From positions 317,139 through 381,138 of the forward strand of contig HG799466.1 of NCBI GenBank assembly GCA_000531095.1: 64,000 bases of DNA, given 5' to 3'. Positions 1,397-7,875 of this stretch are shown piece after piece. A program made the position numbers and the translations under genes. Source of the DNA: Gemmata massiliana (GTDB lineage Bacteria > Planctomycetota > Planctomycetia > Gemmatales > Gemmataceae). How positions within the stretch are numbered: position 1 is the first letter of the stretch; the number at the start of each line of letters is the position of its first letter. The notes under the pieces were generated by a model that worked only from the letters and a program-made list of their open reading frames with translations, had not been told where the DNA came from and searched no databases.

Positions 1397-1491
1397 GGCG
1401 ACCGGTCGGTGTTAGCAGAATCCAAATTCTTCTTTGTTTTGGGCAGAATTAACGAACCAACCGGATTCCGAGCACAAACACCCCGCGCACC

Positions 1492-2678
1492 TTACGGCCG
1501 AACCAGGCCGGCCGGAACCGCGGGGTTCGTCTTGCTCTGGATCTTCGTCAGTTCGGCCTGGGCGAGGTCCGCGTGCCGCGTGTTCGGGCACAGCGCCACC
1601 ACTTTCTTCAGACAGACCGCGGCTTCGGTGTCCTGGCCCTTCTTCGACCACGAGTCGGCCAGCGCCATGTACATCGCCGCGGTGCGGTCGTGGAAGTAGC
1701 GAACTGCCTGGACGTTCCCGTTGTTGTATAACTTCGTATAATGTATGCTATACGAAGTTATTACGCGTCCTTCGCCTCGGGCAACTCGGAATAGGCCGCC
1801 GCGATCTGCTCGCACTTCTGCATGCAGTCGTACAGGCGCCCGGTACGGAAATCGTCGCGGGCCACCGCGAGCATGTCCCGCGCGACCCGGAGCCGGCGCT
1901 GTTGGAGCACCTCGGGCCGATCGTTCAGCCCCGCGAGAGCCAGAGCCGCGTCCGAAGCGGCCCGCGTGCCGGCGTAGGTGCGAACCGCTTCTGCGAGCGC
2001 GTCCATTGCTTCCTGGGTCTGGCCGCGCTGTTCGAGTTGCTTCGCTTGGGCCAGTTTGCCGGCCGCGACTTTCTCGACGTCGCCCAGGATCTGTTTCGCC
2101 TTCACGCCCACGGGCTTGTCCCCGGCGTCCTTCGTGATGCCCTTCAGGAGCGTAACGGCCCGCGGGTAGTCGCTCGCGGCCAGAGCCTTCGACGCCTCGT
2201 TGAAGTCGCGCGCGGCCCAGTCCGCCGTGGCGACCGCGGTCACGGTTGCGCTTCATCTGCTCGGCGAGGCGCTCGGTCTCGACGTAGCCCCTCAAATAAA
2301 AAAGCAGTGGATCTTCCCGTCCGGACCGGCGAGCACGGTCGTGGGGTACAACTGCACCTTTAGCGCCTTCGCCAGTTCCGGGGTGCTCCTGGCGTCGAGC
2401 TTCAGCGGGACGAACCCGGTGGCGAGGAGCGGCGCGAGCGCCGGGTCTTTGAGCGGCCCGGCTTCGAGCTTGCGGCAGTAGAAGCAGTCCTCGGTACCGA
2501 CGACAACGAGCAGCGGCAGTCCCTTGTCTTGCGCTTCCTTGCGGGCCGTGTTGTAATCGGTTCTCCAGGTGACCTGAGCCGGGCGAGCGGGCTGCGCGGC
2601 GGCGGGGAGCGCGTGCCAGAGTGCAGCGGCAGTCACGAGCGGAAAGAGGGCGCACAGACGCGAAAAGGGACTAATCAT
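1492..2678 (-). CDS. Thioredoxin-fold/TPR secreted protein, broken by a linker insertion and two indels
   Basis: The start at 2678 gives a signal peptide (MISPFSRLCALFPLVTAAAL, cleavage near AAAQ), then a thioredoxin fold with a CxxC-type motif (EDCFYC) and the cis-Pro loop 'LYPTTVLAGPDGK'. The rest is helical and TPR-like, ending in 'AEAVRTYAG' and 'VALCPNTRHADLAQAELTK'. The frame is broken three times. One T seems missing from the run at 2298-2303, one extra A sits near 2246-2247, and 77 bases of linker plus mate sequence lie at 1689-1765. Correcting all three gives one 369-residue frame (1110 bp including the stop). It is probably a periplasmic thiol-disulfide protein of the thioredoxin-like family. 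No partner is evident. xerC lies upstream on the same strand. Confidence 0.7.
1689..1723. repeat. 35-bp exact copy of 5700-5734 beside the linker
   Basis: These 35 bases are identical to 5700-5734 inside the ABC ATPase gene. The identity stops exactly where the linker begins. This is the mate end of a circularised fragment and is not natural sequence at this place. Confidence 0.85.
1724..1765. other. 454 paired-end linker (contains loxP) left in the assembly
   Basis: Bases 1728-1761 are a perfect 34-bp loxP site: 13-bp arm ATAACTTCGTATA, spacer ATGTATGC, inverted arm. The bases around it extend the match to the 42-base 454 Titanium paired-end linker as I remember it, with one mismatch at 1725. 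The minus-strand translation contains 'ITSYSIHYTKLY', a peptide known as linker contamination in protein databases. It is an artefact and not a recombination site of this organism. Confidence 0.93.
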
Positions 2679-2824
2679 GAAGCGAACCCCTGGTGCCAAT
2701 CGACACGAACAACTTAGCGCCGAACCCCGTTCGGTACTGCCCCGTTGCGCCCCCACACCGCGGGCGCAGCATCGATAAAGGACCAGCGCTAAAACGGAAC
2801 CGAAGCTCGTTCCCACTCCCCCAC

Positions 2825-3729
2825 TCACGACCGGGGGTGGGCCTTCTGGTAGCTCTTCTGGAGTCGTTGCGTAGTAACGTGTGTGTAAACTTGTGTCGTC
2901 GCCAGGCTCTTGTGCCCGAGCAGTTCTTGGACCCCGCGAATGTCGGCGCCCGCGTCCAACATGTGAGTCGCGAAACTGTGTCTCAACGTGTGCGGACTGG
3001 TTCGCGGGTCGAGCCCCGCGGTCTTCAGGTGTTTTTCCAGCAACCGGCCGACGCTGCGAGTGGTCAGCCGGCCGCCCTTGTTGTTCAGGAACACCGCTTG
3101 TGTGTCTTTGCCGGTCCGATGGAGCAAGGCCGAGCGGTCCTCGAGCCACCGCGAGATCGATTTGATGGCGTCCGGCCCAACAGTGCGAGCCGCTCTTTCT
3201 TGCCCTTGCCCCGAACCGTGATGACTCCATCGTTGAGGTCGACGCTCAAAAGGTCGAGACCAACCAGCTCGGAAACGCGAATCCCCGAAGCGTAGAGCGC
3301 CTCTAACATGGCGCGATCGCGCCGCCCCGCCCAATCGCTGTCCGGGGGCGCAACCAACAACTTTTGAATATCCGCGAGAGTCAGGAAGTGTGGGAGCTTC
3401 TTGTCCTGCCGGGGGCCGCGCAGCGCCTGCGCCGGGTTCGATTCGAGTACTCCCTGCCGGCACAGGTACTTCCCGAACGAGCGCACGGCGGCGAGGCGCC
3501 GAGCGATGGTGCTCTTCGCGTAGCCCTGTTCGTGGAGCCACGCGACGAACGAGCGCACCAAGCGCGTGGTCCAGTCCGCGGGATCGATCTGGGATTTCTT
3601 GAGGTGGTCGCGTGCGTACTGGAGCGCCTGCGAGAGATCCTCGCGGTACGACTTTACCGTCTTATCGGATGCGTTCTTTTCCAGGCCGAGGTGGGTGAGG
3701 AATTCGGCGAGCCCTGTTTCGAGCGTCAA
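2825..3729 (-). CDS. xerC: Tyrosine recombinase XerC/XerD (frameshifted)
   Basis: Site-specific recombinase that resolves chromosome dimers at dif during cell division. The N-terminal SAM-like core-binding domain (about residues 5-90, '[20 protein letters not shown]') is followed by the catalytic domain. The catalytic residues are visible: Arg in '[12 protein letters not shown]', HxxR in '[12 protein letters not shown]', His in '[11 protein letters not shown]', and the Tyr nucleophile in 'VYTHV'. The frame changes near 3174-3178 in a GGCCC run. One added base joins 'ERLALLG' to '[10 protein letters not shown]' and gives 301 residues, the usual family length. The start is TTG at 3729. I think the frameshift is a sequencing error. 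XerC versus XerD cannot be settled from sequence alone. Confidence 0.85.
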
Positions 3730-3834
3730 AGCTGTGTCCCGTCCGGGCGAACACCGGCGCCGCGCGTTCCGTTGCGGCGCCTAGTGGGATTGTCCGGTCG
3801 GGGCCGCCCTGCTCCAACAACGAAACGGCTCGGG

Positions 3835-4050
3835 TCACTCTTCGAGCAGGTCGGCCGGGTCCGGTTCGGCCTGCGGGTTGCGAACGCGCTCGGTCAGCAC
3901 CGAGGCGTCGAACCAGTTCAGCGCCACCGCGGGATCGGCCGCCTTGTCGCGAATGTCATCAATGAGCGCGGCCTTGCTGTCGTCGTCGTAGACGAAGATG
4001 AACCGCTCGGTGCCCTTAATCAGAGCGAGAACGTTAAGCTCTTGCGTCAC
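3835..4050 (-). CDS. Small conserved hypothetical protein
   Basis: A 71-residue protein starting at GTG 4050 with 'VTQELNVLALIKGTERFIFVYDD' and ending 'AEPDPADLLEE'. GGAG lies just upstream of the start, and the longer upstream reading has poor coding character. It is acidic at the C-terminus, with no signal peptide or membrane segment. It resembles small conserved proteins seen in Gemmataceae, but I do not know a function. It lies upstream of xerC on the same strand (105 bases away) and divergent from the metal transporter genes. Confidence 0.6.
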   Translation of the reverse strand: MTQELNVLALIKGTERFIFVYDDDSKAALIDDIRDKAADPAVALNWFDASVLTERVRNPQAEPDPADLLEE

Positions 4051-4233
4051 GCGACACTCCCGGCGCGGTCGATGCCACTTACGGTGAATCGGCACGGCGA
4101 GAACACGCACTTCAACCAAAACTCGACAAGAACTCCTGCTTCGCGCAGGCTCTCCAAAATACCGGCACAATCGGCACACTCGGGTGGCTCAAAAACTCAC
4201 AAGTACAACACGAGTTTCCCGGTTCTCGGTACC

Positions 4234-4262
4234 TTGTCTTCAAACGAGGTCCGTGGTACAAT
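4234..4262 (+). promoter_or_regulatory. Sigma-70-like promoter with overlapping inverted repeat
   Basis: TTGTCT at 4234-4239 and TACAAT at 4257-4262 are separated by exactly 17 bases, about 50 bases upstream of the metal-binding protein gene. An inverted repeat CGAGGTC (4245-4251) / GACCTCG (4263-4269) is centred on the -10 element and could be an operator, for example for a metal-responsive repressor. The operator role is inference only. Confidence 0.45.
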
Positions 4263-4312
4263 GACCTCGGTATTACGATGTTATCCCTGCCCGCTCCGAG
4301 GGAGTGCGACTC

Positions 4313-5308
4313 ATGAACAGCGGACAGTTCTGGCTCAAATCGGCGATCATGGGCGCGGTCGTAGCGGCGCTCCCGCTGCTCCTCGTCGGCTGCGGTAACT
4401 CGAACACGGTCAGCGACGCGACGTGGCCCGAGCACCCCGGACCGAAGGTCGTCGTGTCCTTTGCGCCGCTGTACTGCTTCGCGACCAATGTTGCGGGCGA
4501 GGACGCGGTTGTAAAGAATGTGATGACCTCCAAGGGGCCGCACGACTTCGACCCGACCGAAGCGGACGTGAAACTCGTTACCAAAGCGGACCTGTTCTTC
4601 GTTGTCGGCTTGGGTCTGGACGAACAGAAAGCCGACAAGATGAAAAAGGGTTCCGGGAACAGCAAACTCAAAGTCATCGAACTCGGCGAAAAGCTCAGCA
4701 AGGACTGCCTGGAAGAAGGGCGGTGCAACCACGACGAGCACCACGAGGGCGAACACGACCACGGCATCGACCCGCACGTCTGGCTCGGACCCGATCACGC
4801 GATCATGCTGGTGAACATCATCCGCGACGAACTGAAGGCCGCGGACCCGGTCCACGCCGCCGCCTACGATTCCCGCGCCGCCGCCTACGTCACGAAGCTC
4901 AACGCCCTCAAGACCTACGGGTTGGACAAGCTCAAGGACAAGGAAGAGCGCCGACTCGTCACGTTCCACGACTCGCTCGCATACTTCGCGAAGGGGTACA
5001 AGATCCGAGTGAAGGAAGTGCTGACGAAAACCCCCGGTCAAGAACCGGACGCAAAGGAAATGAAGAAGCTGATCGACATTTGCACCAAGAAGGACGCACC
5101 CGTTCGACTGATCGCGACCGAGCCGCAATACTCGACGAGCACCGCGGGCGAAGCACTGCGCAAAGAGTTGGTCGCCAAGGGCGTGAAAGACGCCGAACTG
5201 GTCGAGTTCGACACGCTCGAAACGGTGCGGCCCGAAGACCTGAAGCCGGACTGGTACGAGCGCAAGATGCGGGAAAACCTCGACAAACTCGCCGAGAAGA
5301 TGAAATGA
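4313..5308 (+). CDS. Metal ABC transporter substrate-binding lipoprotein (ZnuA/TroA family)
   Basis: Solute-binding protein that would capture zinc or manganese outside the membrane. The ATG at 4313 has GGAG about 8 bases upstream and gives 331 residues. The N-terminus is a lipoprotein signal with lipobox LVGC (Cys27). Family features are the early strand 'KVVVSFAPLYCFATNVAG', the metal-ligand region 'GPHDFDPTEADV', a His-rich loop 'CNHDEHHEGEHDHG', and 'DPHVWLGPDHAIMLVNII'. The His-rich loop is typical of zinc-binding members. The stop overlaps the start of the ATPase gene (ATGA), so the two are translationally coupled. The permease gene expected in this system is not nearby. Zinc is the likelier substrate. 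Confidence 0.85.
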   Translation: MNSGQFWLKSAIMGAVVAALPLLLVGCGNSNTVSDATWPEHPGPKVVVSFAPLYCFATNVAGEDAVVKNVMTSKGPHDFDPTEADVKLVTKADLFFVVGLGLDEQKADKMKKGSGNSKLKVIELGEKLSKDCLEEGRCNHDEHHEGEHDHGIDPHVWLGPDHAIMLVNIIRDELKAADPVHAAAYDSRAAAYVTKLNALKTYGLDKLKDKEERRLVTFHDSLAYFAKGYKIRVKEVLTKTPGQEPDAKEMKKLIDICTKKDAPVRLIATEPQYSTSTAGEALRKELVAKGVKDAELVEFDTLETVRPEDLKPDWYERKMRENLDKLAEKMK

Positions 5309-6075
5309 GTCTGGCTCTCCCGGTCGTCGTCCGCCCCCTCGTTTCCCTCAGCGATTTGCGCGTGGAACTGGGGGGCAAGCCGATCCTGCGCGGGGTCACG
5401 GCCAACATCGCGCGCGGGTCCATTACCGCGCTGATCGGCCTGAACGGGTCCGGGAAGACCACCCTGCTCCGCGCGCTGGTGAACGAGTACCCGCACAAGG
5501 GAACGATCAAGTTCCACTGCGGGCACGACCACTCGAAGCCGTACCCGGAAGCCATCGGGTACGTGCCCCAGCGCCTCACGCTCGACGCCCGCTTACCGCT
5601 TACCGTCCGGGACTTCCTCGCACTCACGCTCTCGCGGCGCCCGCTCTTTTTTGGCATTTCCAAGAAGGTCGCGGCCAAGAGCCGGGAGATGCTGGAGCGC
5701 GTGGAAGTAGCGAACTGCCTGGACGTTCCCGTTGAGGGGCTGTCGGGCGGGCAGTTACAGCGCGTGTTGCTCGCACTGGCGCTCGAACCACAGCCCGAAC
5801 TGCTGTTACTCGATGAGCCGGCGGCGGGGATCGACTTCAAGGACCAAAAGAAGTTTTACGAGTTGATCGCGACGATCAATCGCGAAACGGGAGTAACGGT
5901 TCTGCTCGTGTCGCACGATTTGAACATGGTGCAGACTTATTCCCACGAGGTGTTGTGCCTACGTAACGGCGCGATCCAGTGTCAGGGAGCACCGAACGAG
6001 ATTCTCACACCAATCAACATGTCTCTGGTCTTTGGTGCGGAAATCCACATGTTCCCGCACCGGTTCGGAAGCTGA
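5305..6075 (+). CDS. Metal ABC transporter ATP-binding protein (ZnuC-like)
   Basis: Cytoplasmic ATPase of a metal importer, 256 residues. Visible motifs are Walker A 'GLNGSGKTT' (45-53), Q-loop 'GYVPQRLTLDA', signature 'LSGGQLQRVLLALAL', Walker B 'ELLLLDEPAAG', and switch His in 'VLLVSHDLNMV'. The insertion 'HCGHDHSKPYPEA' before the Q-loop is unusually rich in possible metal ligands. The C-terminal 'INMSLVFGAEIHMFPHRF' resembles zinc/manganese family ATPases. It begins on the ATGA overlap with the binding-protein gene. No permease gene follows; the next gene is on the other strand. Bases 5700-5734 are copied at 1689-1723 as an assembly artefact. Confidence 0.88.
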   Translation: MSLALPVVVRPLVSLSDLRVELGGKPILRGVTANIARGSITALIGLNGSGKTTLLRALVNEYPHKGTIKFHCGHDHSKPYPEAIGYVPQRLTLDARLPLTVRDFLALTLSRRPLFFGISKKVAAKSREMLERVEVANCLDVPVEGLSGGQLQRVLLALALEPQPELLLLDEPAAGIDFKDQKKFYELIATINRETGVTVLLVSHDLNMVQTYSHEVLCLRNGAIQCQGAPNEILTPINMSLVFGAEIHMFPHRFGS

Positions 6076-6135
6076 TTTTTCGCCGAGGGCATTTGTGGCC
6101 GCGGGTTCGTGTCGAGTGCGAACCCGCCATCCCAC

Positions 6136-6327
6136 TTACGCCAGGGGCGGCCAATCCTTCGCAAGTCCTTCCCGTTCAATCAGTTCCACTTGTTCCTTCG
6201 TGATGTGATACCGAGACGCGATCTCCTTCTTGGAGTCCGCGATCGTCACGGTGCGTGCGTCCTGAACATCAACCAGGGCGTGGAAAATGGACTTTCGCTG
6301 CTGTACTGTCAGTGTCTTGGCAGACAT
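6136..6327 (-). CDS. Small conserved hypothetical protein
   Basis: A 63-residue protein, 'MSAKTLTVQQRKSIFHALVD' at the start and 'EREGLAKDWPPLA' at the end. The middle ('KEIASRYHITKEQVELIE') reads like a helix-turn-helix or short helical bundle, so a nucleic-acid or regulatory role is possible but unproven. Similar short proteins are common in Planctomycetes. It is divergent from the amidohydrolase gene, with a 144-base region between them. Confidence 0.6.
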   Translation of the reverse strand: MSAKTLTVQQRKSIFHALVDVQDARTVTIADSKKEIASRYHITKEQVELIEREGLAKDWPPLA

Positions 6328-6471
6328 TTGGTGTCACTCCAGGTGGTAGCTAAGCAAGTACGAAGGTGCCTATATTTAGTGTACACCCGCCAAGTGACGC
6401 TCTAAGCCCAAATCCTCTCCTTTTCCGCGCTTGTTGCTCACAATTACGCTCTCATCGCGAAAGGTCCGATC

Positions 6472-7875
6472 ATGCTGGCCCGCCGACTTTCCGCGCTCGT
6501 GGTTCTAACTGTTAGCCTCGCTGTTTCCGGTATCGAACCGCGTCGAGAGGCTCCCGACAAACCCTCACAACCCGGCGCGAGCGCGCAACTCAACCCGCCC
6601 GTGGGCTGGGTGAAAAAGCACCTCGCCGAAGTGGACAAGAAGCTCGACGGCGAGATCAAAGACCTCGTCGCGCTCTACCAGCACATCCACGCGAACCCGG
6701 AACTGTCGCTGATGGAGGTAAACACGTCCAAGCGATTAGCGGAAGAAATGAAGAAAGCAGGTTACGAGGTCACCGAGAAATTCGGCGGGAACGGTGTGGT
6801 TGCGGTGCTGAAAAACGGTCCCGGCCCAGTCGTGCTTATTCGCACTGATATGGATGGTTTGCCGATCATCGAGCAAACCGGACTGAGCTACGCGAGCAAA
6901 GTGAAGACGAAGAACCGCGACGGCAACGAGGTCGGCGTGATGCACGCTTGCGGTCACGATATCCACATGGCAACGTGGACCGGCACGGCCCGCGTGCTCG
7001 CGTCGATGAAGGCCCACTGGAGCGGAACGGTGGTGTTCGTGGCTCAGCCCGCGGAGGAAATCGTCGCGGGAGCGAAACAAATGCTCGACGCGGGGTTGTA
7101 CTCCAAGTTCCCGAAGCCCGACTATGCACTCGCGCTGCATTCCGACCCGCTACAACCGGCCGGTTCACTCGGGTACAGCGAGGGGCTCGCACTGGCCAAC
7201 TCCGACACGGTCGACATTCTCGTGAGGGGAAAGGGTGGGCACGGCGCGTCCCCGCACGTAACCATTGATCCGATCGTCCTTTCGGCGCGAATCATTCTCG
7301 ATCTACAGACCATTGTGAGCCGCGAAACGGACCCGCTCGACCCGGTCGTAGTCACGGTCGGATCGATCCACGGTGGTACGAAACACAACATCATCCCGAA
7401 CGAGGTGAAGCTCCAACTCACGGTCCGCACCACGACCAACGCGACACGCGACCGCGTGCTGAAGGCCATCGATCGCATTGCGAAGGCCGCTGCTCTCGGC
7501 GCGAACGCCCCGCCACCGGAAGTCAAAGTGAGCTTGGACGAGTTTACCCCTGCGACTTACAACGACGTGCCACTCGCCCAGAAGTGCGGCGCCCTGTTCC
7601 GCGAGATTCTGGGAGCCGAGAACGTGCGCGGGAACCGCAAGCCGGTGATGGGCGCGGAAGACTTCGGCCGCTTCTCGGAGGGCAAAACGCCGACCTTCAT
7701 GTACTTCCTGGGCACGATCTCGAAAGAGAAGTTCGCCGCAGCCCAGAAGCCCGGCGCCCCCGCACTGCCGGGAATGCATACCGACGCCTACGCGCCCGTA
7801 CCCGAACCGAGCATCCGCACCGGGGTGCGAACGATGAGCCTCGCTGCAATGAACCTGATGCCGAAGGGGAAATGA
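6472..7875 (+). CDS. M20-family amidohydrolase/peptidase, secreted
   Basis: Metal-dependent hydrolase of the N-acyl-amino-acid or IAA-amino-acid amidohydrolase group (M20D), which cleaves an amide bond to release an amino acid. The 467-residue protein starts with a signal peptide (about residues 1-20). Metal-site motifs include 'RTDMDGLPIIEQTGL' (124-138), 'HACGHDIHMA' (158-167) and the acidic catalytic pair in 'QPAEEIVAGAKQML'. The lid/dimerisation region carries 'GGHGASPH'. The C-terminal 'GAEDFGRFSE' holds a further ligand. It is monocistronic, ending at a hairpin shared with tyrS. The natural substrate is unknown. Confidence 0.85.
   Translation: MLARRLSALVVLTVSLAVSGIEPRREAPDKPSQPGASAQLNPPVGWVKKHLAEVDKKLDGEIKDLVALYQHIHANPELSLMEVNTSKRLAEEMKKAGYEVTEKFGGNGVVAVLKNGPGPVVLIRTDMDGLPIIEQTGLSYASKVKTKNRDGNEVGVMHACGHDIHMATWTGTARVLASMKAHWSGTVVFVAQPAEEIVAGAKQMLDAGLYSKFPKPDYALALHSDPLQPAGSLGYSEGLALANSDTVDILVRGKGGHGASPHVTIDPIVLSARIILDLQTIVSRETDPLDPVVVTVGSIHGGTKHNIIPNEVKLQLTVRTTTNATRDRVLKAIDRIAKAAALGANAPPPEVKVSLDEFTPATYNDVPLAQKCGALFREILGAENVRGNRKPVMGAEDFGRFSEGKTPTFMYFLGTISKEKFAAAQKPGAPALPGMHTDAYAPVPEPSIRTGVRTMSLAAMNLMPKGK

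Follow-up and report, generated by a model that had tools for sequence, protein, structure and literature searches.

Inside a thioredoxin-like gene of Gemmata massiliana, about 1.1 kb from open reading frames for a tyrosine recombinase, lies a perfect copy of loxP. The question raised by this locus, which lies in a 64,000-nucleotide stretch of contig HG799466.1 (hereafter the window), is whether the site belongs to a working Cre/lox element of the organism or is a residue of how its genome was sequenced.

The loxP site and its flanks

The loxP match is complete (34/34 bases) and is the only copy in the window; none of 100 shuffled controls contained a match, even with up to three mismatches allowed. 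The surrounding bases, 1724-1765 of the window (positions 318862-318903 of contig C5 of the genome), are identical at 41 of 42 positions to a mate-pair linker that we take to be the 454 Titanium paired-end linker; the sole mismatch, T for C at linker base 2, is probably a sequencing error. In the passage of PMC5199103 that deals with adapters, the 42 letters and their reverse complement are the mate-pair adapters screened for, with no mention of 454 in that passage, and an excerpt of PMC3253782 describes a Roche 454 paired-end kit in which Cre-LoxP is used and the junction is marked by a linker. A literature search with the linker letters gave a match in a guppy paper only.

The 35 bases preceding the linker (1689-1723) are identical to 5700-5734, on the same strand and with a shift of +4011 (Table 1). 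Since the collinear place in a relative, G008, within an ABC transporter gene, has 34 of the 35 bases of 5700-5734, the latter is the native copy and 1689-1723 the transplanted one. When a fragment running from s to e is circularised via a linker, a read across the junction has the order end e, linker, start s; a copy of the left flank is therefore expected downstream and a copy of the right flank upstream, both on the same strand. The copy in the window lies in this direction, and the inferred fragment is 3969 bp long, as against the nominal 3 kb of the library in the main text of the published genome report (PMC4672568). The limits of the block carry an uncertainty of up to three bases because CGT at 1689-1691 is present at the native place too in the relatives measured, and these three bases may be native in the window.

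Table 1. Features of the window that bear on the origin of the loxP site
Feature	Position	Strand	Basis or remark
Host gene (thioredoxin-like and C-terminal parts)	1495..2774	-	tblastn with relatives; limits approximate; coding sequence interrupted by the block
False ORF reading through linker and mate	1492..2655	-	ORF list, translation; contains VITSYSIHYTKLYNNGNVQAVRYFH
Foreign block, 77 bases (mate scrap and linker)	1689..1765	.	Replaces about 69 native bases
Mate-end copy of 5700-5734	1689..1723	+	35/35 identical, shift +4011
Paired-end linker	1724..1765	+	41/42 bases; taken to be 454 Titanium
Perfect loxP core within linker	1728..1761	+	34/34
Tyrosine recombinase ORFs	2825-3541 and 3085-3729	-	ORF list; about 1.1 kb from loxP
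Native place of mate end, in ABC transporter ATP-binding gene	5700..5734	+	34/35 bases in G008; ABC_tran domain
Inferred circularised library fragment, 3969 bp	1766..5734	+	1766 is the start of one mate, 5734 the end of the other

An earlier note on this DNA had described a perfect loxP, a 42-base linker matched at all but one position, an identical 35-base copy 4011 bases away in the same orientation, and the order expected of a circularised fragment. All of these were borne out, as was its claim that the linker yields a false peptide: VITSYSIHYTKLY is the translation of one linker frame and lies in the minus-strand ORF at 1492-2655. The papers listed in a search for this peptide were judged, from that listing, to concern laboratory constructs.

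Comparison with natural loxP sites sets this site apart. Viral loxP copies (74, in 72 stretches) mostly lack the linker flanks: 68 have neither, 5 have both and 1 has one, and 59 of the 74 have flanks of the type TAAG...TAGG or CAGG. The site in the window shares all 34 bases with bacteriophage P1 loxP, but its flanks are TTGT and TACG, not P1-type, and it interrupts a conserved chromosomal gene. To the 42-nt Cre-lox paired-end linker, by contrast, the likeness extends over 41/42 bases, with nine exact copies elsewhere in the genome and a mate-pair order of flanks, and the T at linker base 2 is the one difference. Used as a query, the 42-mer matched 14 records among annotated phages, mostly P1-like, and 673 among plasmids, mostly from Escherichia.

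Had loxP recently entered the chromosome from a P1-like phage or plasmid, or been engineered into the strain on purpose, its identity with P1 loxP, a site that P1-like records do carry, would be explained. We give either event only a very slight chance, in that the flanks are wrong (on which ground P1-like insertion was rejected), 1489-7873 is, outside the 77 bases, collinear with the chromosome of G008 at 93.4%, and the approximately 60 scattered pieces in this genome, some with mate copies, do not resemble the traces of a prophage or of engineering.

Recurrence in the genome and its sequencing source

The assembly, which comprises 9,269,192 bases in 22 contigs, contains 24 perfect loxP copies and 23 places that match the 42-mer with at most three mismatches, nine of them exactly; two 18-base parts of loxP occur at 51 and 30 places. 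In the fetched stretches we distinguish 60 linker pieces: 46 align with a score of at least 30 and 10 with 18-29, and the remaining 4 are weaker and may match by chance. Many copies are shortened or lie near N gaps; such a gap is present within 300 bases of 22 of the 60 pieces, and of 162 among 5000 positions drawn at random from these stretches. Exact loxP was found in none of 58 other genomes, ranging from the same genus up to the same class.

A flank copy was counted when exact, at least 20 bases long, at most 6 bases from the linker, more than 1 kb away and inside the fetched stretches. Ten of the 60 linker places have one, all ten on the same strand and in the mate-pair direction (5 left-flank copies lie downstream and 5 right-flank copies upstream, shifted by 1466 to 6104 bases), whereas 2000 random positions in the same stretches gave 17 such copies of mixed directions, one of them inverted. 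A looser BLAST search revealed 3 more places with a copy over 1 kb off in the mate-pair direction (L017, L021 and L046; 82 to 94% identity), as well as copies less than 400 bases away, in both directions. Counted against the artefact reading are the 50 of 60 places at which the fetched stretch contains no exact flank copy adjoining the linker and, with respect to mate-pair direction, repeat-rich L024 (C6:134062), where the looser search gave a 76.9% match to the left flank 2478 bases upstream.

The ends of some loxP copies likewise count against that reading, TACG being replaced by GC in 9 of the 24 copies (L011, L012, L014, L018, L020, L022, L026, L029 and L030) and by other bases in 4. TCGT precedes loxP in 7 of the 9 GC-ended copies, and loxP followed by GC also occurs in Sediminibacterium salmoneum and Actinobacillus seminis. 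In 2 of the 3 copies in A. seminis, the GC end gives way to repeated A or T and then to what looks like 454 primer B, so that GC could be where an adaptor has its outer end.

The tyrosine recombinase beside the site invites a different explanation, i.e. that the organism has a Cre-type system of its own, of which this would be a true loxP-like site, acted on by the enzyme 1.1 kb away. The collinear G008 locus has Phage_integrase and Phage_int_SAM_1 domains (the scan being of G008), and the former is in keeping with such a system, as are the 24 perfect loxP copies. Yet the recombinase stretch is collinear in G008 and G012, both of which, like the rest of the 58 relatives, are without loxP; the flanks are those of the 42-nt linker, many copies are shortened or near N gaps, and the site interrupts a conserved gene from which about 69 bases are missing. 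This explanation is highly improbable, and a real Cre/lox element using the nearby recombinase was rejected, given that the relatives retain the recombinase without loxP; the adjoining gene could be misleading as a hint of a living lox system. Less credible still is a planctomycete with dozens of true loxP sites, dispersed by a recent spread in this strain alone and acted on by a chromosomal tyrosine recombinase; flanks specific to the linker, the direction of the mate copies and the shortened copies beside gaps all but exclude it. There is a length difference from G008 at about 3179, where the recombinase falls into two ORFs.

According to the main text of PMC4672568, G. massiliana was sequenced from 454 Titanium 3-kb paired-end and XL+ shotgun libraries and assembled with Newbler 2.8, giving a draft of 22 scaffolds, 9,249,437 bp, 64.07% GC and one 16S gene; a search of that text for linker, trim and loxP found none of them. 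The assembly analysed here fits this draft in scaffold count, overall size, GC (64.4% both in the fetched stretches and in the window) and 16S count (one match), and we take it for the published assembly or a near version of it; it is approximately 20 kb larger, which we count against the correspondence. Differences in length from G008 at 2247-2300, 3179 and 3835, several of them in or beside single-base runs, are likely pyrosequencing errors, with real divergence also possible; the thioredoxin-like gene changes frame around 2247-2300.

The same kind of artefact might instead derive from another Cre-lox mate-pair library with the same 42-nt linker, in keeping with the adapter passage of PMC5199103, in which mate-pair libraries were screened for both 42-nt sequences and 454 goes unmentioned. 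We regard this as very unlikely, though less so than any reading in which the site is real, considering that the fitting published project lists 454 libraries (main text of PMC4672568) and that some length differences from G008 fall in or beside single-base runs, as in pyrosequencing, divergence again being possible.

Native bases missing from the host gene

Searches by tblastn with relatives divide the host gene into a block in frame -1, from 2774 or 2768 to 1764, and a block in frame -3, from 1710 to 1495; a Thioredoxin_7 domain was found at the collinear G008 locus. Between the places corresponding to 1689 and 1766, all 4 relatives measured (G008, G012, G001 and G002) have 68 bases, so that the native stretch is 69 bases (23 codons) if 1689 is counted with the block, and where the window has 1689-1723 these four differ in sequence from the mate copy. 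A pattern search of 19 relative loci found a gap of exactly 22 residues between the gene halves in 17; G014 and G023 gave no pattern match, and G023 has 22 residues by hand measurement. The gene is present in 26 of 41 genomes, i.e. 25 relatives and the genome itself, and loci were obtained for 19 relatives, 18 of which were taken by tblastn, with a clean pair of blocks in 12. The exceptions were G007, in which the second block crosses the junction, and G002, G005, G009, G010 and G014, for which the wrong ORF was apparently taken.

The 77 foreign bases therefore replace some 69 native ones, in a replacement rather than a clean insertion; a simple 77-base insertion was rejected, as the relatives have 69 native bases there. 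The earlier note had held that removing 1689-1765 restores the reading frame, which stands as arithmetic (the halves lie in -1 and -3, and 77 is 2 modulo 3), the frame being restored because the native bases lost make up complete codons. As a repair, removal does not stand: it leaves the gene without 23 codons, approximately 69 native bases that are conserved in relatives, and the true gene is therefore not the two flanks joined.

Compared with relatives, native sequence is replaced at three sites, i.e. in the window, at L034 and at L020. At L034, 175 bases (the linker and a 137-base mate, with a 4-base overlap with the next block) replace 147 G008 bases, and in G008 the match to this mate lies 1.3-1.4 kb off. 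L020 has 38 linker bases in place of 30 of G008, and 46 in place of 38 of G012; no mate was found there in the comparison with these two relatives. Two further linker sites gave only partial or scattered matches to G008.

We put at roughly 98% the probability that the block is an unremoved 454-type paired-end linker with a scrap of mate sequence, replacing about 69 native bases, and thus a sequencing artefact. That it is a data artefact mimicking Cre/lox, as had been proposed from the sequence, is supported by the linker flanks, the recurrence, the absence from 58 relatives, the direction of all ten flank copies and the fitting 454 project; the organism most probably has no Cre/lox element. 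A 454 Titanium-type paired-end read would have run from the mate end (5700-5734) through the linker into the mate start at 1766. The splitting step would have missed the linker, leaving the read unsplit, and the assembler may then have treated it like any other read at the margin of a presumably thinly covered stretch, so that 77 bases of mate and linker stand where about 69 bases of the thioredoxin-like gene belong.

Linker-type sequence in other public records

At least 102 public contig stretches contain loxP. Among the matches listed, the 130 copies divide into 102 with linker flanks on both sides, 17 with one and 11 with neither, and copies of linker type on one or both sides occur in 12 of 19 organisms. 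TCGT-loxP-TACG is shared by Candidatus Paracaedibacter symbiosus, the Rickettsia endosymbiont of Diachasma alloeum, Legionella tunisiensis and others. The site studied here differs from those in other linker-bearing genomes in that it lies inside a scaffold, in a 64-kb window without any N, and so passes for real sequence. On sequence grounds, the linker artefact is present in a number of public genomes; a literature search by title and start of abstract found no earlier account of it there.

Although ordinary as biology, the case deserves attention, given that other public genomes contain the linker too. Users of affected genomes should be aware that loxP matches and peptides such as ITSYSIHYTKLY are technical. 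Such blocks can also replace native bases, and masking or cutting the linker alone therefore leaves an in-frame but wrong gene.

Linker-like sequence also occurs in viral records. In Lactococcus phage Q33 (JX564242.1, 17546-17584; L262, 3001-3039), TCGT-loxP-TAC stands at the end of the annotated portal gene, the end of which (17551) falls inside the linker-like stretch; here too, in a reference phage, the linker artefact is the probable explanation. The excerpted part of PMC5301393 was not found to state how phage Q33 had been sequenced. Four IMG/VR viral contigs (L187, L223, L225 and L232) have linker-type rather than P1-type flanks.

In Nonomuraea gerenzanensis (NZ_LT559118.1), 6 places match the linker query. 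Salinispora oceanensis (NZ_KB911579.1; L147) has 4 loxP copies alternating with AGATCGGAAGAG, which we take to be an Illumina adapter, and this case looks like a different Cre-lox mate-pair artefact. An Aeromicrobium contig (L138, 1776-3032) and an Alicyclobacillus fastidiosus plasmid (L142, 1397-2651) share 1257 bases at 99.8% identity, including GAAT-loxP-TAGC; a Rahnella plasmid matches 98% of this stretch, parts of which are found in at least 5000 plasmid records, and it is perhaps cloning-vector sequence.
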